Of a stretch of DNA of 64,000 bases, positions 8,606 to 27,704 are shown piece after piece. The notes beneath the pieces are model-generated. The model was not told where the DNA came from and ran no database searches. It saw only the letters and a program-made list of their open reading frames with translations. This DNA comes from Glutamicibacter sp. B1. GTDB lineage: Bacteria > Actinomycetota > Actinomycetes > Actinomycetales > Micrococcaceae. Positions within the stretch are counted from its first letter, which is position 1; each line of letters begins with the position of its first letter. The translations under genes and the position numbers were made by a program. The stretch lies in the NCBI RefSeq assembly GCF_039602135.1, contig NZ_CP125942.1:1364001-1428000 (forward strand). Reading direction: 5' to 3'.

Positions 8606-10095
8606 GAGTCCAACTCCGGGCTGCCGGCGTCTTTCCACGCGGTGTATTTGGCTTTCCACTCGGCGTTCATCGGGAACAGGCCTTCGATACCGTAGCCGCG
8701 CTTGACCATGGCGAAGATGAATTCGTCGTTGGACTCGGTGACCATGGCTTCGGCAGCCACCTCTTCGACTAGGGCTGGTGGGATGACCACGATGCCATCA
8801 GAGTCGGCGACGATCACATCTCCTGGTTGGACCGAGACGCCACCGCAGGCCACGGTGATGTCCTTGTCCCAGGCCACGTGCTTGCGGCCCAAGACTGCTG
8901 GGTGGGCACCGTTGTAGAAGACCGGGATGTCCAAATTGCTCACGGCGTCGAGGTCGCGTACCCCACCATCGGAGATGATGCCGGCTGCGCCCAGCTGCTG
9001 GGAGCGCAGTGCCAAGATGTCGCCTAGCGTGGCCGAACCGGTTTCTCCGCGGGCTTCCATCACCAGGATTTCGCCACTGTTCAATGAGTCAATGGACTGC
9101 TTCTGGGTGTTGTATCCGCCGCCGTGTGCCTTGAAGAGGTCTTCGCGGTTCGGGATGTAGCGCAGGGTGCGGGCGGTACCGATGACGCGCTGCATACCCT
9201 TGGTGGCGCCAGGAACTTCGATGTTGACGTTGTTCAACCCGCGCTTGCGCAAGGTGGCCGACAGGGTCGCGGTGGCCACCGAGGCGAGCTGTTCGCGGAC
9301 CGCGTCGGTGAGTACTTCCTTGCCGGTGATTACCGGTGGTAGGCCGGCGGTAGCGCGGTCGCCGTAGGCATCTTCCTTATCCTTCTCGGTGACCTTGGGC
9401 TGGTTGCCGAAGGAAGCGAAGGTGGCGGTGCCCTCGGTGGCGGTGGTCTTCAGCTTGCCCGTGGAGGTGCCGGTGATCAGATCGGTGACTTCAACTTCCA
9501 CCGCATCGCCTGGGAAGAAGACGGTGGAGCCGGCAGGGGTGCCGGTGAGGATGATGTCCCCGGGCTGCAGGGTCATCTGCTGGGAGAGATCAGCGATGAT
9601 CTGCGCGAAGGAGAAGAGCAGTTCAGAGGTGGTGGCGTCCTGAGCGATTTGCCCGTTGACCCAGGTCTGCACCCGCAGTTTGGCGGGATCCAGTTCTGCT
9701 GCCGGGAGCGCGTTCGGGCCCAGTGGGGTGTAGCCGTCGCCCGACTTGGAGCGGATGTTTGATCCCTTGTCGGCGTACTTCATGTCGTGGACACCCAGAT
9801 CATTGGATGCGGTGACCGAACCAACGTGGCTCCAGGCTTCTTCTACCGAAACGCGGCGGGCGGTGGTGCCGATGATCAGTGCGATCTCACCTTCGAAGGC
9901 GAGCAGTTCGGTTCCGGCCGGACGTTCAACGGTGCCGTTGGTGGCGGCCAGGGAGCTGGAGGCCTTCATGAAGTAACTGGGGAACTTTGGGGTGCGTCCG
10001 CGCTGTGCTGCGCGGGAGGAGTAGCTCAGGTGTACAGCGAGAACTTTGCCTGCCTGGGCGAAGGTCTCTTGGGTTACTGGGAGAGTAGTGCTCAC
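8593..10095 (-). CDS. Fusion: fumarylacetoacetate-hydrolase domain + RraA-like (class II aldolase type) domain
   Basis: 500-residue two-domain protein. Residues ~50-230 are an FAH/HpcE-type domain (FEGEIALIIG, SNDLGVHD, PGDIILTGTPAGS with metal-ligand acids), the family that decarboxylates and isomerises 5-oxopent-3-ene-1,2,5-tricarboxylate in this pathway. Residues ~275-480 are an RraA-like domain; it keeps the D-X20-R-D motif of the HMG/CHA class II pyruvate aldolases (Asp359, Arg380, Asp381 in SDGGVRDLDAV), unlike non-enzymatic RraA. Start GTG 10095 with AGGA nine bases upstream is preferred over ATG 10119, which has no ribosome site. First gene of the operon. E. coli HpcE/HpaG instead has two FAH domains. 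The RraA half may act as the pathway aldolase (see findings). Confidence 0.88.
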   Translation of the reverse strand: MSTTLPVTQETFAQAGKVLAVHLSYSSRAAQRGRTPKFPSYFMKASSSLAATNGTVERPAGTELLAFEGEIALIIGTTARRVSVEEAWSHVGSVTASNDLGVHDMKYADKGSNIRSKSGDGYTPLGPNALPAAELDPAKLRVQTWVNGQIAQDATTSELLFSFAQIIADLSQQMTLQPGDIILTGTPAGSTVFFPGDAVEVEVTDLITGTSTGKLKTTATEGTATFASFGNQPKVTEKDKEDAYGDRATAGLPPVITGKEVLTDAVREQLASVATATLSATLRKRGLNNVNIEVPGATKGMQRVIGTARTLRYIPNREDLFKAHGGGYNTQKQSIDSLNSGEILVMEARGETGSATLGDILALRSQQLGAAGIISDGGVRDLDAVSNLDIPVFYNGAHPAVLGRKHVAWDKDITVACGGVSVQPGDVIVADSDGIVVIPPALVEEVAAEAMVTESNDEFIFAMVKRGYGIEGLFPMNAEWKAKYTAWKDAGSPELDSWAL

Positions 10096-10165
10096 CGTTG
10101 ATCGTCCTACTTTCGTCATGCATCATGTCGTACATCAAATCGTATATGATCAGTGTGCGCCGAAT
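10096..10165. promoter_or_regulatory. Probable promoter/operator of the homoprotocatechuate operon
   Basis: AT-rich stretch just before the first gene. On the leftward strand ACGA recurs at about one-helix-turn spacing (around 10140, 10129 and 10116) within alternating ATAC/GTAC/ATGAT words, suggestive of a GntR-type operator region. No clean palindrome longer than four bases per arm is visible, so the site is only indicated. Confidence 0.3.
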
Positions 10166-10338
10166 CTCATCCACTGTCAAGCGTGATTTCAAGTAGCCTG
10201 CGAGTTTGGAATTCTTTTCCATGTAGATGCGCGAGCAGGACTATCCGCCGATCCAGTACAAATTTAAAAGTTGGAATGTTGATAATTATCTAGTACTTTA
10301 CTTAATAGCACTAGAAAGACATCAATTTTGGAGAATTC

Positions 10339-11967
10339 ATGGAAAGCATGTTCAGGTTGCTTAGAAAAGAGTCCGAAGCTAAAGCAGAAGGCTTTTATTT
10401 ATTCAAGCGAAGCTGGAATGACTACTGGGATTATGAAACTACTTATTTGTTAGTGTTTTTTGATGAGAAGCTAACGCGTAAGGACATTGGCGAGGTGAAG
10501 ATTGGAAGTTCTCATTTTGAGTACTCCAAGGAAACTCCTTCAGCTCCAATTCCGAAAAAGTTCACTCTTTTGGGATCGGAATATTTTTCATTAGGGCAGT
10601 CAACAGAGTATTATCATAACTTACGCAGTCTAGGAAATGAAATTGCTACCGCGGCATTTATTGCATTAAGAGATATCTCATATGACCTGAATATATATAA
10701 AAATGTATCAGGAAGTCAAGTAGCAAGTATTTCCCTTTTAAGATTCATTAAACCCGCTACTGTTAAAGGGCAATTTAATAGGTTGGCTCGCGGCGGATCG
10801 CGACTCGAGAACTTCAACTTTGAGTACGTTTTCCCTGAGTCAGAAGAATTTTCATTTGTTCCTAAGACGATCGACTTTAACGTAAATATTTCCTCGGTTA
10901 TCCCTTCAAACGTTCAAGTTTTAATTGGAAGAAATGGAGTCGGAAAATCTACGTTACTCGATGCTATGGCTCGTACTTTCGTCCTTTCCAAAGATGGTAA
11001 TGAAGAAATTAAGTCCAAGTACGGATTTTTTCGGGGTAACTCCGCGTCTGAGGATCTTCCATTTGCCAACCTAGTTTCGGTGTCATTTAGTGCCTTTGAT
11101 TCTTTCACTCCAATCGCAGAGCAGAAGAATCAGGTTGATAATCACGGATATACGTACATTGGGCTTAAAGTTAAAAAGAAGAGTTTAAGTCTATTTAAAG
11201 AAGAATACGACAACGAAGAATTACTTGAACAAACATATTTCAAATCACCTCAAGAATTGAGAGATGAGTTTTCGGAAGTGGTACGTAACTGTCTTCTACC
11301 TTCAAATATTAATCGATGGAAACAAGCAATCGACTTATTAGAATCCGATCCTGTGTTTACGAGAACTGGAATAAGTCAGCATATTTCTTCCTTACTTGAT
11401 GAGTACGTCGACTTGCGTTCAAGCCAAGAGAATCTTGCCGTGGTGGTGAATAGTCATGCTGCAGATCTCTCAGAATTATTTACCAAGAGGTTAAGTTCAG
11501 GCCACAAGATTGTCTTACTTACAATCTCGCACCTCGTGCTATCTGTGACTGAAAAGACCTTGGTTCTTATCGATGAACCTGAGGCACATCTTCATCCTCC
11601 ACTGTTGTCAGCGTTTATGCACGCATTGTCAAATTTGATGGCTGACAGGAATGGTGTTGCGCTGTTAGCTACACATTCGCCTGTGGTACTTCAAGAAGTG
11701 CCCAAAGAATGTACTTGGATTCTGAACAGAATTGGGACTTCATCGAAGCTTGGACGACCTTCGCTTGAAACTTTTGGTGAAAATGTGGGCATCTTGACAA
11801 GCGAGGTATTTGGACTCGAAGTATCCTCAACCGGATTCCACAGACGACTTCGTGATCTTGCTCTTAAATTTGATAATTACGAGGACGCAGTCCGAGAAGT
11901 TCATGGACAATTAGGCGAAGAGGCGAAACTTATTCTCGATTCGCTTATTTGGTTAAAAAAGGCATAA
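10339..11967 (+). CDS. AAA/ABC-type ATPase of a Septu-like defence pair, with long N-terminal extension
   Basis: 542-residue ATPase of the OLD/RecF-like AAA class. Walker A GRNGVGKST is at 197-205, an LSSG signature at 385-388, Walker B LIDEPEAHLHP around 410-420, and the H-loop ATHSP with His446. This C-terminal two-thirds matches the PtuA type of defence ATPase. The first ~190 residues match no family I recognise and are not present in ordinary PtuA, where Walker A lies near the N-terminus. Start ATG has GGAGA four bases upstream. The gene is visibly AT-rich compared with its neighbours, suggesting transfer. An HNH nuclease gene follows after five bases, as in PtuA-PtuB. Likely role: nucleotide-dependent sensing and control of the nuclease during phage infection (inference). 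Confidence 0.8.
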   Translation: MESMFRLLRKESEAKAEGFYLFKRSWNDYWDYETTYLLVFFDEKLTRKDIGEVKIGSSHFEYSKETPSAPIPKKFTLLGSEYFSLGQSTEYYHNLRSLGNEIATAAFIALRDISYDLNIYKNVSGSQVASISLLRFIKPATVKGQFNRLARGGSRLENFNFEYVFPESEEFSFVPKTIDFNVNISSVIPSNVQVLIGRNGVGKSTLLDAMARTFVLSKDGNEEIKSKYGFFRGNSASEDLPFANLVSVSFSAFDSFTPIAEQKNQVDNHGYTYIGLKVKKKSLSLFKEEYDNEELLEQTYFKSPQELRDEFSEVVRNCLLPSNINRWKQAIDLLESDPVFTRTGISQHISSLLDEYVDLRSSQENLAVVVNSHAADLSELFTKRLSSGHKIVLLTISHLVLSVTEKTLVLIDEPEAHLHPPLLSAFMHALSNLMADRNGVALLATHSPVVLQEVPKECTWILNRIGTSSKLGRPSLETFGENVGILTSEVFGLEVSSTGFHRRLRDLALKFDNYEDAVREVHGQLGEEAKLILDSLIWLKKA

Positions 11968-11972
11968 AAATA

Positions 11973-12869
11973 ATGTGGAGAACTCATCATACCCCCGATG
12001 AATTTTGTCCTCGGGAATATTCTCGGGATCAGTTTGCATATTCTGTATGGGAAAAGTGCTTAGATACAGTCAGGGACAACGACGATCCTAATTCGAATTG
12101 GTCCGTTCGTAAATCAGCATTGACTGCTTCACTCAATCTCGTTTCGTCTGCTCATGAAAAATTCTATACTTCGGCGCGAACGGATGCTCTTTGGGAGTTG
12201 GACGAGGCTAAATTTCAGAATGGCGAAAAATCGAAAGAGTATTCTGGCTGGTTGTACACCGAAAAGCTTAAAGGATACAAGGTTGTTGATAAATTACGAG
12301 AACGCATTTTATCGACCAGCATGGATGACCTATGTCCATACTGTAATCACAGAACCGTGTACGATCTGGATCATTTTCTCCCAAAAGAGAAGTTTCACCT
12401 CATAGCCGTAAATCCCTGGAACCTTGTTCCAAGCTGCAAAGAATGCAATTCGCTTAAGTCTTCATTTTCACCAAAATTTTCAGAAGAGCAATTCTATCAC
12501 CCCTATTTTTCATCGACCGAGAATTTAAATTGGCTTAAGGCTAAAGTAATCGAAAGTGATAAACCGGTAATTAACTTTTATGTATCTGATGATTTTGCAG
12601 AATATGGTAGGGTGAAACGAATATTCGAGAAGTTGCAACTTAATAGACTTTATAAAGCGCAAACAGCTCGTGAGCTTCTGGTGTTTTCTAAGTCTTTCGC
12701 GAGGCTGAAACATATGCCAGAACGCATTCTTAGGCACCGTGTTAGGGAGAATCTCATCGCGAGGGGTGCAGAAAGGAGTCTGTTACCGAATGATTGGAAA
12801 CGTGCCATGTTTATTGCTATGGCCGAATCTGATTGGTATTGCGACATTGGGTTTAAATCGTCGTGGTAG
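11973..12869 (+). CDS. HNH endonuclease, PtuB-like partner of the ATPase
   Basis: 298 residues from ATG 11973, five bases after the ATPase stop; a TTG at 11949 inside the ATPase gene is a possible alternative, and ribosome sites are weak, so translational coupling is likely. The HNH/zinc core is in the middle: CPYC at 121-124, DLDHFLP with His134, NPWNLVP with Asn150, and CKEC at 155-158, the CxxC...DH...N...CxxC layout of PtuB/retron-associated HNH nucleases. About 110 residues precede and 130 follow the core without recognisable motifs. Low GC like its partner. Expected to nick or cut nucleic acid when released or activated by the ATPase (from the Septu family). Whether the target is phage or host DNA or tRNA is unknown. 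Confidence 0.8.
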   Translation: MWRTHHTPDEFCPREYSRDQFAYSVWEKCLDTVRDNDDPNSNWSVRKSALTASLNLVSSAHEKFYTSARTDALWELDEAKFQNGEKSKEYSGWLYTEKLKGYKVVDKLRERILSTSMDDLCPYCNHRTVYDLDHFLPKEKFHLIAVNPWNLVPSCKECNSLKSSFSPKFSEEQFYHPYFSSTENLNWLKAKVIESDKPVINFYVSDDFAEYGRVKRIFEKLQLNRLYKAQTARELLVFSKSFARLKHMPERILRHRVRENLIARGAERSLLPNDWKRAMFIAMAESDWYCDIGFKSSW

Positions 12870-13214
12870 ACTTCCGTTGACTAGCCTGTAGAAATTGCCG
12901 TCTTCTAATGAAGTCTTGGATTTTGGGTTGAGAAAGATAGCTTATTGCCTTAGTATTCCCCGTGTTTGGGTATGCATATTCGCAGTGGATAGGTGCCAAT
13001 TATCTATGGAAACTGATGTCTAGATTGAATGTATTAGTTGAGCAGAACCAACGGGCGGCGTGAAGACAACGACGGTAAATCTTATTATATGTGAGTTGTT
13101 AGTCATTTCGAATACGAAGATACCTGCTTCCACGACCGATGCAGGACAAAACACCAGCTTGGAACTATGGACAACTGTCAATATTCAGGGCAATTTATTT
13201 ATAGTCTTTTCTAG
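12870..13214. other. AT-rich gap, no gene seen
   Basis: 345 bases between the nuclease gene and mobile-element relics. No frame with a ribosome site or recognisable product. Base composition stays low in GC like the defence pair, so the transferred segment probably extends to here. No clear hairpin terminator was found after the nuclease gene. Confidence 0.5.
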
Positions 13215-13367
13215 TGCTGAATAGAGTTAGTTGGTACCGCACTCCGGCTAGATGGTGTGAAATCGCATGGGTTCGTAGGCGTCGAAAATTAAGTCCTTAT
13301 GGACAACCGATCTGTTCATTTCGTTTTCGGTTACCAACTGCCACCCAAGAGGAGCGGCTGGTAACCG
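13215..13367 (-). mobile_element. Diverged solo end of an IS481-type element related to the downstream IS
   Basis: This stretch aligns with the right end of the intact element (15558-15715) in inverted orientation. Shared landmarks are a TGCTGAATAG...TTAGTTGGTACCGCAC outer part, TGGTGTGAAATC, a TTCGTAG core, TGGACA, a GTTACCAAC arm, and an exact 16-base GAGCGGCTGGTAACCG at 13352-13367 matching 15558-15573 reversed. Many scattered substitutions show it is an old remnant. No transposase fragment accompanies it. Confidence 0.7.
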
Positions 13368-13865
13368 AATACCAACTAGCTGTATTCATCATCCGCTAGC
13401 ATCTGCGGGCTTGCATGAAGCCGTCCCGTAGTGAGTATGAGTGAATATTCAATGAAAATTACTTGAATATTTGAACTACAAATGAATCGCTGGACAAATT
13501 GGAGCTTAAACTGGCAATAAAAAGTGGATGACATGGATTGTCTGAATTGTGAGCAGAATAACCCTTGAAGGTACTGCCATTCTTGCAACGTGAAACCACT
13601 GTTCTTCTAACCGGGTATTGTTCGCCACTGTCGCTGCTTCAAGGCGGATTCTTCAACCAACTTTCGGCCTCAAATCTGTCAACGGGAACTTCACTTGACC
13701 GAGAAAGAAGAAGGCTGCGGCACACCCGGTTTATTTGTCAGCGCGGCAGCTCGTCGCCATTCCGAAAGCGCCGCGGAGATGCTACCCACGTATCAATCGG
13801 AGGATGACCTGATGATTCCTTGGGCCCAGGTTGTACGGGCATGAGGATTCACCGTCCTTCAGCAA
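13368..13865. other. Gap between relic end and intact IS, no convincing gene
   Basis: About 500 bases. GC rises after 13600. A short frame reading through roughly 13680-13842 has a protein-like composition and an acidic ...DDLMIPWAQVVRA end, so it may be the tail of a broken small gene, perhaps an antitoxin-like one, but there is no start or recognisable domain. Otherwise nothing seen. Confidence 0.35.
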
Positions 13866-13921
13866 CGACGAAACCACCGCATTGCTGAATGCGGCTAGTG
13901 GGTACCCCTAGTCCGGACAGA

Positions 13922-13993
13922 TGGTGTGAAATCTCGTTACTTCGTAGACACTGAAACTCACGGCTTCGTGGACATTGGATCTCAATACTTTGT
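13922..13993 (+). repeat. Left terminal inverted repeat, 72 bp
   Basis: Starts TGGTGTGAAATCTCG and ends CAATACTTTGT; exactly reverse-complementary to 15594-15665. It contains two of the tandem CTTCGTgGACA units described separately, presumably transposase-binding sites. Confidence 0.9.
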
Positions 13994-14085
13994 ATGTCCT
14001 GTCTCATCACATTGTGGACACACGAACTCATGACTTCGTGGACACCATGCCTCAACAGATCGTGGACAAAACAAGACTGCTTTCT
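13938..14085 (+). repeat. Tandem 22-26 bp repeats at the IS left end
   Basis: Six degenerate direct units of the form (A/G)CTTCGTGGACA...CTCA follow one another: near 13938 (ACTTCGTAGACACTGAAACTCA), 13962 (GCTTCGTGGACATTGGATCTCA split by one base), 13986, 14010, 14032 and 14057. The first two lie in the inverted repeat; the rest run into the 5' part of the transposase frame. The right end has only two full units plus a partial one. Arrays of this kind usually bind transposase; the asymmetry could mark left and right ends. Confidence 0.65.
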
Positions 14086-15549
14086 GGCACTGTCGAAATC
14101 ATGACAAGTGCCCTTCCGCCACGCGTGCGATCCATGATCATCAACTTCGACCCCACACAACCAGACGCCCTGAGCATCAGCGAATTCTGCAAGACTCAGA
14201 AAATTTCCCGAAGTATTTTCTATCGACTTCGGAACAGAGCCGTCAACGAATCTGCTGCGGCTCTGCACCCGCAATCCAGAGCGCCAAGGGAGCCAGCCAG
14301 GAAATACGGACCAGAAGTAATCAACGAGCTGGTGAAGATCCGTCAGAAACTCAAGAAGGATGGTTGGGATTACGGTCCCAAAACCATTCATTGCGAAGCG
14401 ACGATTAACCAAGACACTTTCCCGGGCGGCAAGATTCCGTCAATTGCTACGATAGGCCGCTTACTGGCCGGCGTGGGTCACGTGGACCGCAACCCTCGCA
14501 AGCGGCCTAAATCTTCCTACGTTCCCTTCGCAAGGTCAACGGCCATGGCTCTGTGGCAACTTGATGCTTTCGAATACCGCACCGCCAAAAATCAGCTGGT
14601 CACCGTGTACCAGCTCATTGATGATGCCAGCAGATTCGATGTTGGCTCCCGAGCTTTCCAACGCCACGAGAATAGCCAGGATGCTCAAGAAGTACTTGCG
14701 CACGCCATCGCGGAGTACGGTGCACCACAAGAAGTACTCAGTGATAATTCCAAAGCGTTCAACCAGTTACGTAGCGGGACATTCGGTTCAGTAGAAATGT
14801 TTCTCGCATCCAAAGGAACCATGCCGATCACAGGGCTTCCGGGAAGGCCTACTACTCAGGGGAAGAACGAACGCTCGCACCGTACGTTGCAACGCTTCTT
14901 GACGGCGAATAAGCCACAGGATCTCGCTGATGTGCAGAGGCTACTGAAACGCTATCGAGAGCATTACAACAAACGCTGTCCACATCAATCCTTGAATCAA
15001 GCAACCCCACAGGCTGCCTGGGAACTGTTGGAGCATACACCGGCCACCGAACCGATTCACTTATCAGTGTTGGAAGCGAAAGCCGCCGAATACCTCAGTA
15101 AACGTCGCTTGGCTCAGCCTCTGGCAAGCTGGTTGGATGTGGTCGTGTCGAAGTCGGGTGAAATCATGCAAAGCACTCATGACGCCTCGGATCCCGTACC
15201 GCTGTTGGAATCTAATCAGATGCTTGTGGAAGTCACCAGAGAAAACCGGCGCACGTTCTATCAAGGGTTTCACATTTCGTTGCCGACATCGTTCGCTCGC
15301 CGTCAGTTCATCAGGACGATTACAGACACAGAATTCTTATTGTCGGACCCTGATACAAGCGAAATTGTCATGTCGTTCCCTTTACCGATGGTGGCGTTGA
15401 AAGTTGAGGGGAAGTTCGTTTCGTCGTATTCAATCAGGGGTATTCAGATGACCTTGACGACTCGTCAGTGGGAGAAGAAAGCCGAGCAGTATCGTACTGT
15501 CATTCAGGCTCGTGAGGAGCAATCGCCGACGTTCTTCGATCATCACTAG
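13975..15549 (+). CDS. IS481-family DDE transposase
   Basis: Catalyses excision and insertion of the element. The frame is 524 codons from the first ATG, but that codon lies inside the terminal repeat and the first ~40 codons encode the tandem repeats, so translation more likely begins at ATG 14047 or 14101. Domains: helix-turn-helix near residues 63-85 (LSISEFCKTQKISRSIFYRLRNRA), then the rve integrase core with catalytic Asp in WQLDAFEY, Asp in VLSDNSKAF and Glu in KNERSHRTLQR; a beta-rich C-terminal tail follows. The longer C-terminus than in minimal IS481 members is notable. No frameshift or internal stop, so it may be functional. Confidence 0.88.
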   Translation: MDLNTLYVLSHHIVDTRTHDFVDTMPQQIVDKTRLLSGTVEIMTSALPPRVRSMIINFDPTQPDALSISEFCKTQKISRSIFYRLRNRAVNESAAALHPQSRAPREPARKYGPEVINELVKIRQKLKKDGWDYGPKTIHCEATINQDTFPGGKIPSIATIGRLLAGVGHVDRNPRKRPKSSYVPFARSTAMALWQLDAFEYRTAKNQLVTVYQLIDDASRFDVGSRAFQRHENSQDAQEVLAHAIAEYGAPQEVLSDNSKAFNQLRSGTFGSVEMFLASKGTMPITGLPGRPTTQGKNERSHRTLQRFLTANKPQDLADVQRLLKRYREHYNKRCPHQSLNQATPQAAWELLEHTPATEPIHLSVLEAKAAEYLSKRRLAQPLASWLDVVVSKSGEIMQSTHDASDPVPLLESNQMLVEVTRENRRTFYQGFHISLPTSFARRQFIRTITDTEFLLSDPDTSEIVMSFPLPMVALKVEGKFVSSYSIRGIQMTLTTRQWEKKAEQYRTVIQAREEQSPTFFDHH

Positions 15550-15588: not shown

Positions 15589-15593
15589 TGTGT

Positions 15594-15665
15594 ACAAAGT
15601 ATTGAGATCCAATGTCCACGAAGCCGTGAGTTTCAGTGTCTACGAAGTAACGAGATTTCACACCA
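15594..15665 (-). repeat. Right terminal inverted repeat, 72 bp
   Basis: Exact reverse complement of 13922-13993. The outer flank continues with ACTAGCCGGACGTGCGGTACC, which pairs imperfectly with the sequence outside the left repeat. Confidence 0.9.
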
Positions 15666-15806
15666 ACTAGCCGGACGTGCGGTACCAACTAACCCTATTC
15701 AGCAACCGCATTGCGTACGACGCCCGACGGTTAGATGGCCACGTGGTACGGTTTGTCCGATGCGATCCCCACGGACTCCTAACGCACCAAAGTTCACATC
15801 ATCAGC

Positions 15807-16081: not shown

Positions 16082-17860
16082 TCAGCCCTCCCAAGCTCGC
16101 CAAAGCTTGGCATACTTCCCATCGGATGCCAGTAGCTGTTCATGGGTTCCATCTTCAATAATTTCTCCGCGGTCCATCACTATAATCCGATCAGCGGTTC
16201 TCGCCTGGGATAAACGATGCGCGATAACTAGAGCGGTTCGTTCCTTTGTTAATGCCGCTGCTGCGATATCCAACTCGCGGGAGTTGCTGGATCCCGACTC
16301 TGCCGTAGCCTCGTCCATGACGACAATGCGTGGATTAAGTACGGCAATACGAACTAGGGCAAGATGCTGCTCTTGATGACTTGATAGTTGGTGGCCATTG
16401 GAACCCAGCATTGAGTCCAAGCCTTGGGGCAGATCGTTAATCCAGTGCGCGTGGCAAGAAGCGATTGCCGCTTGAAGCTGGGCTTCAGAGCACGGAGTAG
16501 AAGATCCGAGCGTGAGGTTCTCCCGCACGGTTCCGGAGAAGATATGAGTATCTTGCGAGATGAGCGCGATATTCTGGCGAAGACTCGTCATCTCATATGC
16601 GGAGAGCTGCTTCCCGTCTAAAGTCGCTATACCCCCGGCCGGTTCGATAATGCCGGATAAGATCCGCGCTGCAGTGGTTTTACCTGCTCCGGTGGTACCC
16701 ACCAAGGCGACACATTGTCCATCGGCCAAGGACAAATCAAGATCCTTGAGCACAGCCACGTCCGAATCAAAATGATGACTTACTGCGTGCAGTGCCAGCC
16801 CGGAGGTGGTGGGTTCATGTGATTCGAGAGAAGTTTCACTGGGAATGCGACGTTTAGCTAGGAGAATACCGGTGACTCGTCGTAGTGCGATGCCTGCCTC
16901 TTGAACCATGTCAAAGAGCGTGACTACCTCAGAAATTGGATCGAAAAGTCGATGATAGAGCAAAGCGGCAGTCGTGACCGCACCCACCGTCGTGGCATCG
17001 GCCTGCACGAGGAAGAATCCTGCAGTCAGCAAGGCGGCCATGGTGACAAATTCCGCTCGATTGTTGCGCGCGAAGTAGCGGGTAAGCATACGGAACACGC
17101 GGTCTGCCACGTTGCGTGAATCGTCGCTGGCTCGTTCAAGAGCGTCAATCTGTCCTTGCGCCCAACCTTGAGAATGCAACATGGCCCGTCCGTGGAACGC
17201 ATTGAGAAATGTATTGGTTCGACGGGCAAGGATCTCACGTTCTTCGCGATATAACGGTGCACTTCGCGGTAAGTACCAGCGCAAGGACAGCCAGTACATT
17301 GGGACGGCGATCAACCCGGTGAGACCCAAAACCCAGTGCAGGGTAAATAACCCTGGAACCGAGAGCACCAGCAGGGTGGCCGCGGACAAGAAGGCCGGCA
17401 AAAGCCACGCGACGGCTTGAGAAATCAATCGAGAATCATCGGATACGCGTGAGACGAGCTCGCCATCACCGGCGCGCTCCAAGATTCCCGATTCCAAATT
17501 CAACGCATGCTCAACCGCGTCTTCTCGAAGAGTGGCCACCGTAGGTTCAGCAATTTTCGCGTAGAGAACTCGGGCATACCAGGTGAGCGCGGCACCGAAG
17601 ACCAACGAGGCAGCGATGGCAAGTAAGCATCGGACCAGCGTGGGTTCAGGGTTGTTAGTGCCCAATGCATCAACAAGAATGCCTATAGCAAAGGGCGTGA
17701 TCATGGCAGTGGCCGAGGCTGCCAAGGTGATCAGCGAGGCCCAGATGATCAACCAGCGTTGCGGGCGTAGAGTACGACCCAAAACCCGCCAAGCTGTTCC
17801 AATGCTGGCCGTGGGAAGTGCGGAGGGTACTTGATCCGTGTTTTCGGGGGCGAGGCTCAT
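16082..17860 (-). CDS. ABC exporter-fold half-transporter, catalytic NBD partner
   Basis: 592 residues: six-helix transmembrane domain (about 35-320) then a nucleotide-binding domain. Walker A GTTGAGKTT (388-396), Walker B VVMDEA (513-518) and the H-loop VIAHRLS are intact, but the signature is LSSHQEQHL instead of LSGGQ. Its partner, encoded upstream with an ATGA overlap, shows the exact complement: intact signature and broken Walker motifs. Together they form a heterodimer with one working ATP site. Such pairs beside siderophore genes (YbtPQ, IrtAB) import ferric siderophores despite the exporter fold; the divergent siderophore operon and an iron box support that role here, but siderophore or peptide export is not excluded. 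Confidence 0.85.
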   Translation of the reverse strand: MSLAPENTDQVPSALPTASIGTAWRVLGRTLRPQRWLIIWASLITLAASATAMITPFAIGILVDALGTNNPEPTLVRCLLAIAASLVFGAALTWYARVLYAKIAEPTVATLREDAVEHALNLESGILERAGDGELVSRVSDDSRLISQAVAWLLPAFLSAATLLVLSVPGLFTLHWVLGLTGLIAVPMYWLSLRWYLPRSAPLYREEREILARRTNTFLNAFHGRAMLHSQGWAQGQIDALERASDDSRNVADRVFRMLTRYFARNNRAEFVTMAALLTAGFFLVQADATTVGAVTTAALLYHRLFDPISEVVTLFDMVQEAGIALRRVTGILLAKRRIPSETSLESHEPTTSGLALHAVSHHFDSDVAVLKDLDLSLADGQCVALVGTTGAGKTTAARILSGIIEPAGGIATLDGKQLSAYEMTSLRQNIALISQDTHIFSGTVRENLTLGSSTPCSEAQLQAAIASCHAHWINDLPQGLDSMLGSNGHQLSSHQEQHLALVRIAVLNPRIVVMDEATAESGSSNSRELDIAAAALTKERTALVIAHRLSQARTADRIIVMDRGEIIEDGTHEQLLASDGKYAKLWRAWEG

Positions 17861-23965: not shown

Positions 23966-24843
23966 CTTCACTAGAAACGGAACAAACGCAGTACGATCAG
24001 CGAGCAATGCCCGCCGCAAAGGATGCCGTCGGGCATGGTGCGCCGACGAATTCCAAGGGGCTGAAAGTACAAGCGTTGAGCTTGGGATACGACCGAAAAA
24101 CCGTTATTGATGCCCTGGACTTATCTTTTGAACCGGGAAAATTCACGGCGATTATCGGTCCCAATGGTTGCGGAAAATCGACGTTACTCAGCGCGTTGGC
24201 ACGGCTCTTGAAACCATCCGCCGGCCAAATATTCCTCGGTGACAAAGCCATTGATTCTTTCAAGCCCAAAGCTTATGCCCGGGAAGTATCGCTGCTCAGT
24301 CAGCAGGCCGTGGCTCCGTCGGGAATCACCGTAGCTCAACTTGTTTCTCGGGGGCGTTTCCCGCACCAAGGTCTACTTGCACAGCACAGTAGCGAAGATG
24401 AGGCACCAGTACATCAGGCACTACGCACTACTGGGACCCTGGAATTGGCCACGCACAGACTTTCAGATCTATCAGGTGGTCAGCGTCAGCGGGTATGGGT
24501 GGCAACCACCCTGGCACAGCAGGCTCCGATTTTGTTATTAGATGAGCCGACGACGTATATGGATGTTGCCCACCAAGTGGATTTGCTTGATCTCTTTGCA
24601 TCACAACGTGATGCTGGGAAAACGGTGATTACCGTGCTCCACGACATTAACCAGGCGATGCGTTATGCCGATACGGTAGTGCTCATGCATGAGGGCAAAG
24701 TTCTGGCCAGCGGTGCACCGGATGAAGTCATCACCGTGGATAGCCTTGGTGCTGCCTTTGGTGTTCACTGCGAGATCCATCCAGATCCGGTCACCGGAGG
24801 CCCGATGATGGTGACAGTTCCTGGAGCACGGGTTACTGTGTAA
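23962..24843 (+). CDS. ABC ATPase for ferric-siderophore import (FepC type)
   Basis: 293 residues from ATG 23962 (GGGAG upstream, overlapping the permease stop; the longer frame from 23911 lies in the permease gene). Walker A GPNGCGKST, Q-loop SLLSQQAVAPSG, signature LSGGQRQRVWVATTLAQ, Walker B ILLLDEPTTYMD and switch histidine VLHDINQAMRYAD are all intact. The ~30-residue hydrophilic N-terminal extension before the domain is longer than usual. Energises the FecCD pair; last gene of the operon, followed by a hairpin at 24891. Confidence 0.93.
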   Translation: MTSLETEQTQYDQRAMPAAKDAVGHGAPTNSKGLKVQALSLGYDRKTVIDALDLSFEPGKFTAIIGPNGCGKSTLLSALARLLKPSAGQIFLGDKAIDSFKPKAYAREVSLLSQQAVAPSGITVAQLVSRGRFPHQGLLAQHSSEDEAPVHQALRTTGTLELATHRLSDLSGGQRQRVWVATTLAQQAPILLLDEPTTYMDVAHQVDLLDLFASQRDAGKTVITVLHDINQAMRYADTVVLMHEGKVLASGAPDEVITVDSLGAAFGVHCEIHPDPVTGGPMMVTVPGARVTV

Positions 24844-24890
24844 TACGCTGTGTTTCTGTCGCCGCACCATTGTTGATGCTAATAGATTCT

Positions 24891-24916
24891 ATGGGTTTTG
24901 CTCGAGTGAAACCCAT
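24891..24916 (+). terminator. Hairpin after the iron-uptake operon
   Basis: ATGGGTTT, ten-base loop, AAACCCAT: 8-pair stem 47 bases after the ATPase stop. No T-run; moderate support as a terminator. Confidence 0.45.
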
Positions 24917-25714
24917 GGAGGGGACCCGACTAGATTTTTGCTAAGCTAGGCAACTCATTGGGACCTATGCAATTGAAGATTTTTTAGAGCATGGATGATC
25001 ACATGGTGGTTGTACTTTTCGGCGGACAGCACGCCGCGGAGGTCATCGCCACTCATGTCGTTTTCACATTCATATCGGTGAAGCAGCAACGGGCGTTCTG
25101 AGTACGTTAGAGCTTCTGGTACTGGGTTGATCATCAATCTTAGGAACTAGAGCGCAGGTCGCGGAGTCATCAGTTTACGGAGCTGTCAATTTTGCGGAGG
25201 CTTTTTCTCCACAAGTTCTGGCTATTGTGTTGGTGTGGGCGTAGTATTTATCGTCGTACCGATGTAGCGAATTGGGGGATTTGAAGACGCGTTAGATCGC
25301 TCGCAGTCGTTGCGCATCTTTAGATTTGTCGAGGATCAGCTCTAAACGTTTACGTCGTATGGGGCGATTTCAACAGAGTATTGCTAATTTGATATGCAGG
25401 GCTGATCTTCGACTTGAAACCCGCTTTATGCAAGAACGTCCCATGAAGGATACTTCGTTGCGGTCGTTCTAGACCGAGTAAAATGCATAGAAATCTAAGG
25501 GATAAGACTCTTTGAGCCTCGTGCATCACCCTATAGATTCCTAACCCTAACTCACGTTTATTCTCAGCAAGGCCTTCTGCCCATTTGTGAGTAATCCATA
25601 ACAATGGCACATGAACAATTGGCTCTATCAAGCTATTCCAGCGAACCGCCAACTCGGTCAGCATCGGGGCCTGGTTTTATCGTGATGTGCAAGAGCCTGT
25701 GATGTGAATGCGGA
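24917..25714. other. 800-base gap, no gene seen
   Basis: Several short frames exist on the minus strand (for example 25350-25664 and 24955-25137) but none has a ribosome site or recognisable domain. The stretch may hold decayed coding DNA. No long repeats or clear RNA fold noticed. Confidence 0.4.
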
Positions 25715-25748
25715 AATGCCGGGCCAACCATTTGGTCGACCCGGCATT
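25715..25748 (-). terminator. Terminator of ilvD
   Basis: AATGCCGGG...CCCGGCATT with an inner CCAA/TTGG stem, 33 bases after the leftward ilvD stop codon. Confidence 0.7.
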
Positions 25749-25781
25749 CATTGCACGCTGGAAGTTCCAGCGACGATATTG

Positions 25782-27704
25782 TTAGGCCTTGGCGCCAGCG
25801 CGTGCAGCTGCAGCTTCACGCTCATCGGCTTCGCGCAGTGCACGCTCCACACGATCAACATCGCGGACTGCACCCTTATCGGCGGACAGTGCCATCGCAG
25901 CATAAGCGCGCAACGCAGGGGAGACCACACGCTCGCGGTTAGCTGGGCGGTAACCGGTGGTAGCGATCAAGCGCTCACGACGCTCAGCCAGAACTTCCTC
26001 GGAGACGTTCAAGGTCAGTTCACGAGTTGGGATATCGATGGAGATGGTATCTCCGTCTTCTACCAATGCGATCATTCCCCCGGATGCCGCCTCTGGTGAA
26101 ACGTGGCCGATGGATAGACCAGAGGTACCACCGGAGAAACGTCCGTCGGTGATCAGTGCGCAAGACTTGCCCAGACCGCGTCCCTTGAGGAACGAGGTGG
26201 GGTAGAGCATTTCCTGCATGCCCGGGCCACCCTTTGGACCCTCATAGCGGATGACAACAACGTCGCCTTCCTTGACCTGCTTGTTCAGGATCTTTTCAAC
26301 TGCTTCATCCTGAGACTCACAGACCACGGCGGGACCGGTGAAGGTCCAGATGGATGGATCCACACCAGCGGTTTTCACCACGGCACCATCAACGGCAATG
26401 TTGCCACGTAGAACGGCTAGACCGCCGTCCTTGGAGTAGGCGTGTTCAACGGAGCGGATGCAACCAGCCTCGGAGTCGGTATCCAGGGTTTCCCACTGGG
26501 CCGACTGCGAGAAAGCCTTGGAGGAACGTACACCCGCTGGAGCCGCGTGCCACAGGGCGAGGGACTCTTCGCTGGCGTTACCGCCACGGATATCCCACTT
26601 ATCCAGCCATTCACCCAGGGTGGTGGCGTGAACGGTGTGGACGGTTTCGTCCAGCAGTCCGCCACGGCGCAGTTCGCCAAGGATTGCTGGGATGCCACCG
26701 GCACGGTGAACATCTTCCATGTAGTAGATCTTGCCGGCACCAGCAGCGTTAGGCGCGACCTTGGCAAGACAAGGCACACGGCGGGAGACTGCATCGATTT
26801 CATCCAAACCGAAGTCCACTCCGGCCTCGCGGGCTGCAGCCAGCAGGTGCAAGATGGTGTTGGTGGAACCGCCCATGGCGATATCTAGTGCCATCGCGTT
26901 GCCGAAGGCTTCGACGGTGGCGATATTGCGTGGCAGTACCGTCTGGTCGTTGTCCCCGTAGTAACGGTTAGCGATGTCTACTACCAGCTTGCCTGCATTT
27001 TGGTACAGGTCCTTACGAGCGGTATGCGTGGCCAAGGTGGAACCGTTGCCTGGAAGGGACAGACCCATAGCTTCGGTCAGACAGTTCATCGAGTTTGCGG
27101 TGAACATACCGGAGCATGAACCGCAGGTAGGGCAGGCAGATTCTTCGATGCGCAGCAGATCTGCATCGGAGACGTTTTCGTTGACTGCTTCGGAGATCGC
27201 GTCAACGAGGTCCAGGGTGCGAACGGTGCCGTCTACTAAGGTGGCACGGCCGGACTCCATAGGGCCACCGGAGACGAAGACGGTAGGGATGTTCAGGCGC
27301 AAAGCGGCCATGAGCATGCCCGGGGTGATCTTGTCACAGTTGGAGATACAGATCAGTGCGTCGGCGCAGTGTGCGTTAACCATGTATTCCACGGAGTCTG
27401 CGATGAGATCTCGGGAAGGCAAGGAGTAGAGCATGCCGCCGTGGCCCATGGCGATGCCATCATCAACGGCGATGGTATTAAATTCGCGGGGGATACCACC
27501 GGCAGCTTCAATGGCCTCGGAAACGATGCGACCTACTGGCTGTAGGTGAGTGTGTCCTGGAACGAACTCGGTGAAGCTATTGGCCACGGCGATGATTGGC
27601 TTGCGGCCAAGGTCAGCGCCGTTAACGCCGGCTGCGCGGAACAGTGCGCGAGCGCCGGCCATGTTGCGGCCATGGGTAACGGTATGTGAACGAAGTGTGG
27701 TCAT
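25782..27704 (-). CDS. ilvD: Dihydroxy-acid dehydratase
   Basis: Dehydrates 2,3-dihydroxy-isovalerate and -methylvalerate to the 2-oxo acids in branched-chain amino acid synthesis. 640 residues, normal for the longer bacterial form. Iron-sulfur ligands are in [10 protein letters not shown] and [17 protein letters not shown]; the N-terminus [19 protein letters not shown] is highly characteristic, as are GGPMESG and [20 protein letters not shown] near the active-site serine. No other ilv gene is nearby, as is common in Arthrobacter-type genomes. Divergent from an MmyB-type regulator with a perfect palindrome between them. The ribosome site is weak (run of A before the ATG). Confidence 0.96.

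Follow-up and report, generated by a model that had tools for sequence, protein, structure and literature searches.

Among the known systems closest to the gene pair examined here, an ATPase gene followed by an HNH endonuclease gene in Glutamicibacter sp. B1, are the PtuA-PtuB (PtuAB) modules of Septu and of retrons. E. coli Septu EcB88, which cuts tRNA-Tyr, depends on its Walker and H-N-H residues (PMC13096335). The retron-Eco7 PtuAB lowers the level of tRNA-Tyr and arrests growth only when both subunits are present, whereas in strain ATCC 25922 PtuAB reportedly acts on nicked DNA (PMC11555353). PDC-M01, a candidate of the PADLOC collection (PMC8565338), is listed as no more than a predicted system in two papers, including PMC11811056, where 41 PDC-M01 calls were removed as duplicates of Septu.

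The sequence analysed was a 64,000-nucleotide stretch (the window) of contig NZ_CP125942.1 (GCF_039602135.1), positions 1,364,001 to 1,428,000 of the forward strand; coordinates below are those of the window. On its plus strand, a gene for a PtuA-like and lambda Ea59-like ATPase of 542 amino acids (aa; 10339..11967) is followed, five bases after its stop, by a gene for a PtuB-like and lambda Ea31-like HNH endonuclease of 298 aa, which starts with an ATG at 11973 and whose stop ends at 12869 (11973..12869). Both open reading frames (ORFs) were classified by profiles and predicted folds, and PADLOC places them in PDC-M01A and PDC-M01B, respectively. We conclude that the pair is probably a two-subunit anti-phage module of PtuA/PtuB (Septu) architecture, within a PDC-M01 branch that includes Ea59-Ea31 of phage lambda. 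This reading is based on the pairing of the two genes, their intact catalytic residues, a match of the predicted fold to PtuA and a weaker one to PtuB, gain relative to sister genomes, defence genes beside relatives, and the finding of the same two genes in lambda and on viral contigs; we infer that the proteins form a complex and confer protection, and likewise the trigger, the substrate, and an abortive outcome. In such a mechanism the ABC-type ATPase would most likely oligomerise and restrain the HNH nuclease, an infection trigger would be sensed by the ATPase, possibly via its own N-terminal region, and the freed nuclease would cut DNA or tRNA, stopping the infected cell. By analogy, the pair may be viewed as an ATPase-gated nuclease.

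Every motif that the original prediction had assigned to the two proteins was found in place, as was the five-base spacing. The ATPase carries a Walker A motif (GRNGVGKS, residues 197-204, including K203; 10927..10950), an LSSG resembling the ABC signature (residues 385-388; 11491..11502), and a Walker B motif (LVLIDE, residues 408-413; 11560..11577), all recognised as plus-strand sequence motifs, together with histidine H446 in LLATHSP (11674..11676, plus strand), located by motif and alignment. The HNH core, C121xxC124 ... D133H134 ... N150 ... C155xxC158 (12333..12446, plus strand), was located in the same way. In a conservation alignment of 74 pairs, drawn from 72 loci plus the window and lambda, residues W26, D28, D112, R135, K203, G388, D412, E413, and H446 of the ATPase and C121, C124, D133, H134, N150, C155, and C158 of the HNH protein were identical in 74/74; as this holds for the catalytic motif residues of both proteins, the motifs are not due to chance. 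The first four of these ATPase residues lie in an N-terminal region (residues 1-148; 10339..10782, plus strand) that, judged by alignment and the predicted model, is not part of E. coli Septu PtuA. Less strictly kept positions were K54 and R148 (72 pairs each), Q87 (69), and N159 (69).

The predicted structure of the ATPase has a PtuA-type fold bearing the Walker A, signature, and Walker B motifs, and its best matches were PtuA chains, with E. coli Septu and retron PtuAB tied. These matches span residues 149-496; E. coli PtuA residue 1 aligned to model residue 159, and retron PtuA residues 41-62 aligned to 143-157. Across the N-terminal block the predicted local distance difference test (pLDDT) ranged from 86 to 98, and the C-terminus was modelled as helices. 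A sequence search of the PDB with a profile of 84 ATPases likewise gave retron Ec78 PtuA as its best match (42.6 bits), and the Pfam families above cut-off were AAA_21, AAA_15, and further P-loop families. The top PADLOC match was PDC-M01A (PDLC04235, 576 bits), covering residues 11-539 and hence nearly the full length, followed by a PtuA model (PDLC00282, 487 bits).

The HNH protein was matched nearly end to end by PDC-M01B (PDLC04264, 206.5 bits, residues 25-295), so that both PADLOC components of PDC-M01 were found in adjacent genes. PtuB was the best match of its predicted fold, less firmly than PtuA for the ATPase. In the PDB sequence search with the HNH profile, general HNH nucleases came first (22 bits) and PtuB matched weakly (18.4 bits, E 0.011), and the Pfam HNH match fell below cut-off. 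The HNH protein matched 60 PADLOC families, the best 25 of which did not include PtuB. The profile search assigned both proteins to defence-candidate families and neither to a housekeeping family, which together with the predicted folds supports the PtuA-PtuB makeup first suggested for the pair.

Some results limit a Septu assignment. PADLOC placed the pair first in PDC-M01. The NCBI PtuA model NF041760 scored 54.6 bits against the ATPase, with a cut-off of 500, although this model is narrower than Septu because it is named for retron Ec78 PtuA; the TIGR04435 cut-off was likewise not reached. The PtuB model TIGR02646 scored 16.8 bits against the HNH protein (cut-off 52.15). Across 296 genomes of the phylum the same model gave weak matches in 10 and none above cut-off, so that these were of no value as comparators.

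The opposite possibility, that the pair is plain type I Septu under another model name, with trigger and target as in E. coli PtuAB, appears unlikely to us, though it is the strongest of the competing explanations. It draws on the same PtuA model, PDLC00282, which matches lambda Ea59 (611 bits) as well as the window ATPase, and on the fact that PDC-M01 and Septu were called on the same genes in those 41 duplicates (PMC11811056). Classical Septu comparators were also sought on plasmids, where five weak matches were opened. In a Priestia megaterium plasmid (NZ_CP065214; L130:2008-4552), the ATPase was closest to PtuA models and apparently has no N-terminal region, and its HNH partner matched only PDC-M01B models at E 1e-12; from these matches the pair is possibly intermediate between Septu and PDC-M01. 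Both proteins of a Vibrio plasmid pair were PDC-M01; the ATPase of an E. coli plasmid was best matched as AriA, with a partner in no PADLOC family at E 1e-12; and the Klebsiella and Aliarcobacter partners, scanned alone, matched PDC-M62B and PDC-M01B, respectively. Plain Septu fits poorly with scores below the NCBI PtuA and PtuB cut-offs, with an N-terminal region absent from E. coli PtuA, and with an HNH protein of 298 aa where the PtuB chains in the fold comparison have 205-234 residues. Moreover, the targets of PtuAB are themselves reported to vary between nicked DNA and tRNA-Tyr, according to the available text of PMC11555353.

The two genes travel together. A contig search found 293 relatives, of which 80 loci were kept, and an ORF with the HNH pattern lay directly downstream of the ATPase in 74 of the 80. 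Among the six exceptions, three contigs end at most 185 bases past the ATPase and one within 426, one locus has only shorter ORFs without the pattern, and one has a 280-aa ORF missing it. On viral contigs, the whole pair was present in 33 of 36 loci examined out of 45 (nine partial or weak ones, L171-L179, were omitted), and the other three stop at the contig end. Distances among the ATPases and among the HNH proteins were correlated (r 0.80; 0/999 shuffles as high). An ATPase tree of 85 rows, built by a 'quick' method that placed Ea59 and two plasmid outgroups unsurely, required 14 changes of phylum against a minimum of 7, and near-identical copies occur in different families (e.g., loci L020/L025), as expected for a mobile gene. 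Relatives of the ATPase at E 1e-50 occurred in 43 plasmid records, 40 of them listed, a count that is inflated: at least six of these records, 47.4-48.5 kb long and assigned to E. coli, Stenotrophomonas, Paenibacillus, and Salmonella, carry the ATPase with lambda-like identity and are probably lambda DNA misfiled as plasmids. With the own genome included, the ATPase was found in at least 3 of 396 genomes of the phylum (E 1e-60, three candidates scored per genome) and in at least 3 of 147 relatives (E 1e-20, up to nine candidates scored per genome).

The kinship with lambda ea59-ea31 was not part of the original prediction. In NC_001416, ea59 (25396-26973) and ea31 (24509-25399) lie on the complement strand with a 4-base overlap, adjoin int, and are annotated as an AAA family ATPase and an HNH endonuclease. 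In BLASTP, the window ATPase shares 39% identity with Ea59 (303 bits), and the HNH protein shares 24% with Ea31 over 191 residues (E 2e-12); comparison of the latter two as profiles gave a probability of 100 and E 2.6e-44 over 275 columns. PADLOC assigned Ea59 to PDC-M01A (667 bits) and Ea31 to PDC-M01B (375 bits), both at full length, and the window and lambda proteins have in common the PHROG families phrog_8066 and phrog_10378, which the window proteins match at full length with 456.3 and 120.6 bits. A tblastn search of a phage collection returned 24 records; 18 of these, mostly lambda and its kin, aligned with 96% of the ATPase at 38.1-38.6% identity, and the other six were partial or more distant.

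Both lambda genes belong to the b2 region of the phage. The lom-ea59 region has been termed nonessential and was deleted (PMC12318184), and the other mentions of ea59 or ea31 that were examined are strain genotypes. Our search, outside which most subscription literature lies, so that earlier print is possible, found no publication linking ea59 to phage defence or to an ATPase and none joining prophage, lambda, Septu, and the b2 region; among the matches listed, no paper held prophage lambda and PtuA together. We put forward, as a tentative proposal with slightly less than an even chance of being right, that lambda ea59-ea31, which is nonessential and has no assigned role in the literature examined, is a prophage-borne immune pair of PtuAB type, that the operon in the window is a bacterial copy of it, and that the added N-terminal sensor region replaces the retron reverse transcriptase and RNA as the brake on the nuclease.

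The genes beside relatives were surveyed at 57 loci that had a pair of neighbours on either side; of 218 such ORFs, all 100-900 aa long, 147 were scanned. PADLOC matched 183 families at E 1e-15, and the best 25 of these included AbiEi and AbiEii (two ORFs each), Old (two), and GajA- and AriA-type models (two); the AbiEi/AbiEii neighbours come from two loci (L002 and L004) that are near-copies. Among the best 25 of 85 Pfam families were an OLD-like TOPRIM (two) and SAVED, C5 methylase, Schlafen-type helicase, ArdC, and transposases (one to two each); SAVED is a domain of CBASS. Ordinary metabolic genes are likewise among these neighbours. A control of 96 out of 147 prepared ORFs of the same size range, 52 from the window and 44 from sister stretches, matched three PADLOC families (mad3 in four ORFs, SspA in one, DndA in one), which we interpret as hits to ABC ATPases and to a cysteine desulfurase. 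The contrast of 183 with 3 families is rough and is not a rate, because families are not counts of ORFs and PADLOC models overlap. The 52 window ORFs of this size thus show no other clear defence system. Homologues near other defence genes had been anticipated for the pair, and they were seen against this control; the profile and neighbourhood outcomes that would have contradicted the prediction were sought and were absent, which supports the Septu-like reading.

The same data bear on whether the pair instead serves a mobile element, as an accessory nuclease of temperate phages for DNA processing, recombination, or attack on competitor DNA that was stranded in the chromosome. The position beside int in lambda, the frequency of whole pairs on viral contigs, and the dispensability of the lom-ea59 region (PMC12318184) would all suit this, yet we regard it as improbable: the window's pair has no recognised phage gene next to it, some bacterial relatives adjoin AbiE, OLD-type, SAVED-domain, or methylase genes, and the nearest solved folds to the predicted models appear to be those of defence effectors. 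Furthermore, a prophage that attacks competitor DNA would be defending its lysogen all the same. More doubtful again is a toxin-antitoxin or addiction module that maintains itself without anti-phage benefit. Such modules agree with a mobile, compact unit of one ATPase and one nuclease, and the retron-Eco7 PtuAB, co-expressed without the rest of the retron, caused growth arrest; however, PtuA or PtuB alone did not, unlike a toxin and its antitoxin (PMC11555353, in its accessible text).

The pair was most simply acquired by this lineage. The low GC content first noted for both genes was confirmed (ATPase 0.401 and HNH 0.416, where the whole window has 0.546 and the adjacent hydrolase gene 0.620); only 3 of 615 sliding windows of the same length are equally AT-rich, and all within 0.01 start at 10001-10801, that is, at this site. 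Breaks in homology to sister genomes delimit a foreign AT-rich segment (10186..13424, without assigned strand). On the left, nucleotide homology stops at 10181-10189 in 17/17 same-genus genomes, within the retrieved stretches. The right side was compared with 16-kb stretches from 8 of these 17 genomes, and the edge was set just 5' of 13425-13503, a stretch common to one of the eight; that sister is one of the two in which homology restarts at 16084, the restart being first near 25.2-25.8 kb in five others and absent in one. In the eight sampled sisters, the region from the hydrolase gene to about 25 kb of the window is therefore variable, and six of them carry there a 411-aa gene that on visual inspection looks like a component of an ABC exporter; the other two lack it. 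The ATPase was found in 0/17 other same-genus genomes (up to nine candidates scored per genome), and the fumarylacetoacetate-hydrolase-type neighbour gene was present in 17/17 and in 38 of 58 genomes overall, own included. As the pair lies in a genus-variable stretch, gain in the lineage of Glutamicibacter sp. B1, relative to its sisters, is the simplest reading.

Insertion-sequence material had also been reported nearby, and an IS481-family transposase gene indeed adjoins the segment (13975..15549, plus strand; profile E 1.9e-60; 204.8 bits, below the NCBI cut-off of 224). By eye, long inverted terminal stretches flank this element (13910-14060 and 15590-15690), and a similar end sequence stands alone near 13235 (13235-13245), which would be consistent with the loss of a second copy. 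That the pair is a decaying passenger on this scarred insert, its function lost in Glutamicibacter sp. B1, is very improbable despite the stretch from 12870 to the transposase gene, which has no listed plus-strand ORF of 100 aa and holds the remnant of sister DNA at 13425-13503 followed by the IS481-type gene, since neither reading frame is disrupted and the counted catalytic residues are kept.

The pair is one more member of an already catalogued family of Septu-like candidates. The link to lambda ea59-ea31 outweighs this, as it makes the role of two nonessential genes in the best-studied temperate phage experimentally approachable; in addition, the extra region of this naturally occurring PtuAB variant offers a handle on how the nuclease is triggered without a retron. 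The absence of a visible reverse transcriptase partner, noted at first, was borne out. The genome's two RVT_1 matches, about 670 kb away, were rejected as partners: PADLOC names these adjacent genes (~703.6-707.6 kb) Drt3a (311 bits) and Drt3b (474 bits), they follow a type I restriction subunit gene, and by sequence they are a probable DRT3 defence pair. As to an msr-msd RNA, Rfam gave no family at gathering score in positions 1-30000 of the window; Rfam models do not cover every retron RNA.

Compared with OLD, Gabija GajA, and PARIS AriA, the window ATPase differs in having no TOPRIM family among its Pfam matches (E up to 1) and in its HNH partner. Retron-Eco7/Ec78 and Ec83 (type I-A) PtuAB differ in that the window pair has no adjacent reverse transcriptase, and in that fewer residues (~50) precede the core in retron PtuA. 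E. coli Septu PtuA-PtuB (8ee4, 8eea, 8sux) provides the best fold matches of both subunits, less firmly for the HNH protein and tied with retron PtuAB, but its PtuA lacks the N-terminal region and begins directly at the ABC core, and the NCBI models for the two proteins are not reached by the window pair. With PDC-M01 of PADLOC, near full-length matches of both proteins and their adjacency are shared, and no difference was noted. Although phage-borne, beside int, and of low HNH identity, lambda Ea59-Ea31 shares with the window pair the adjacent ATPase and HNH genes and both PHROG families.
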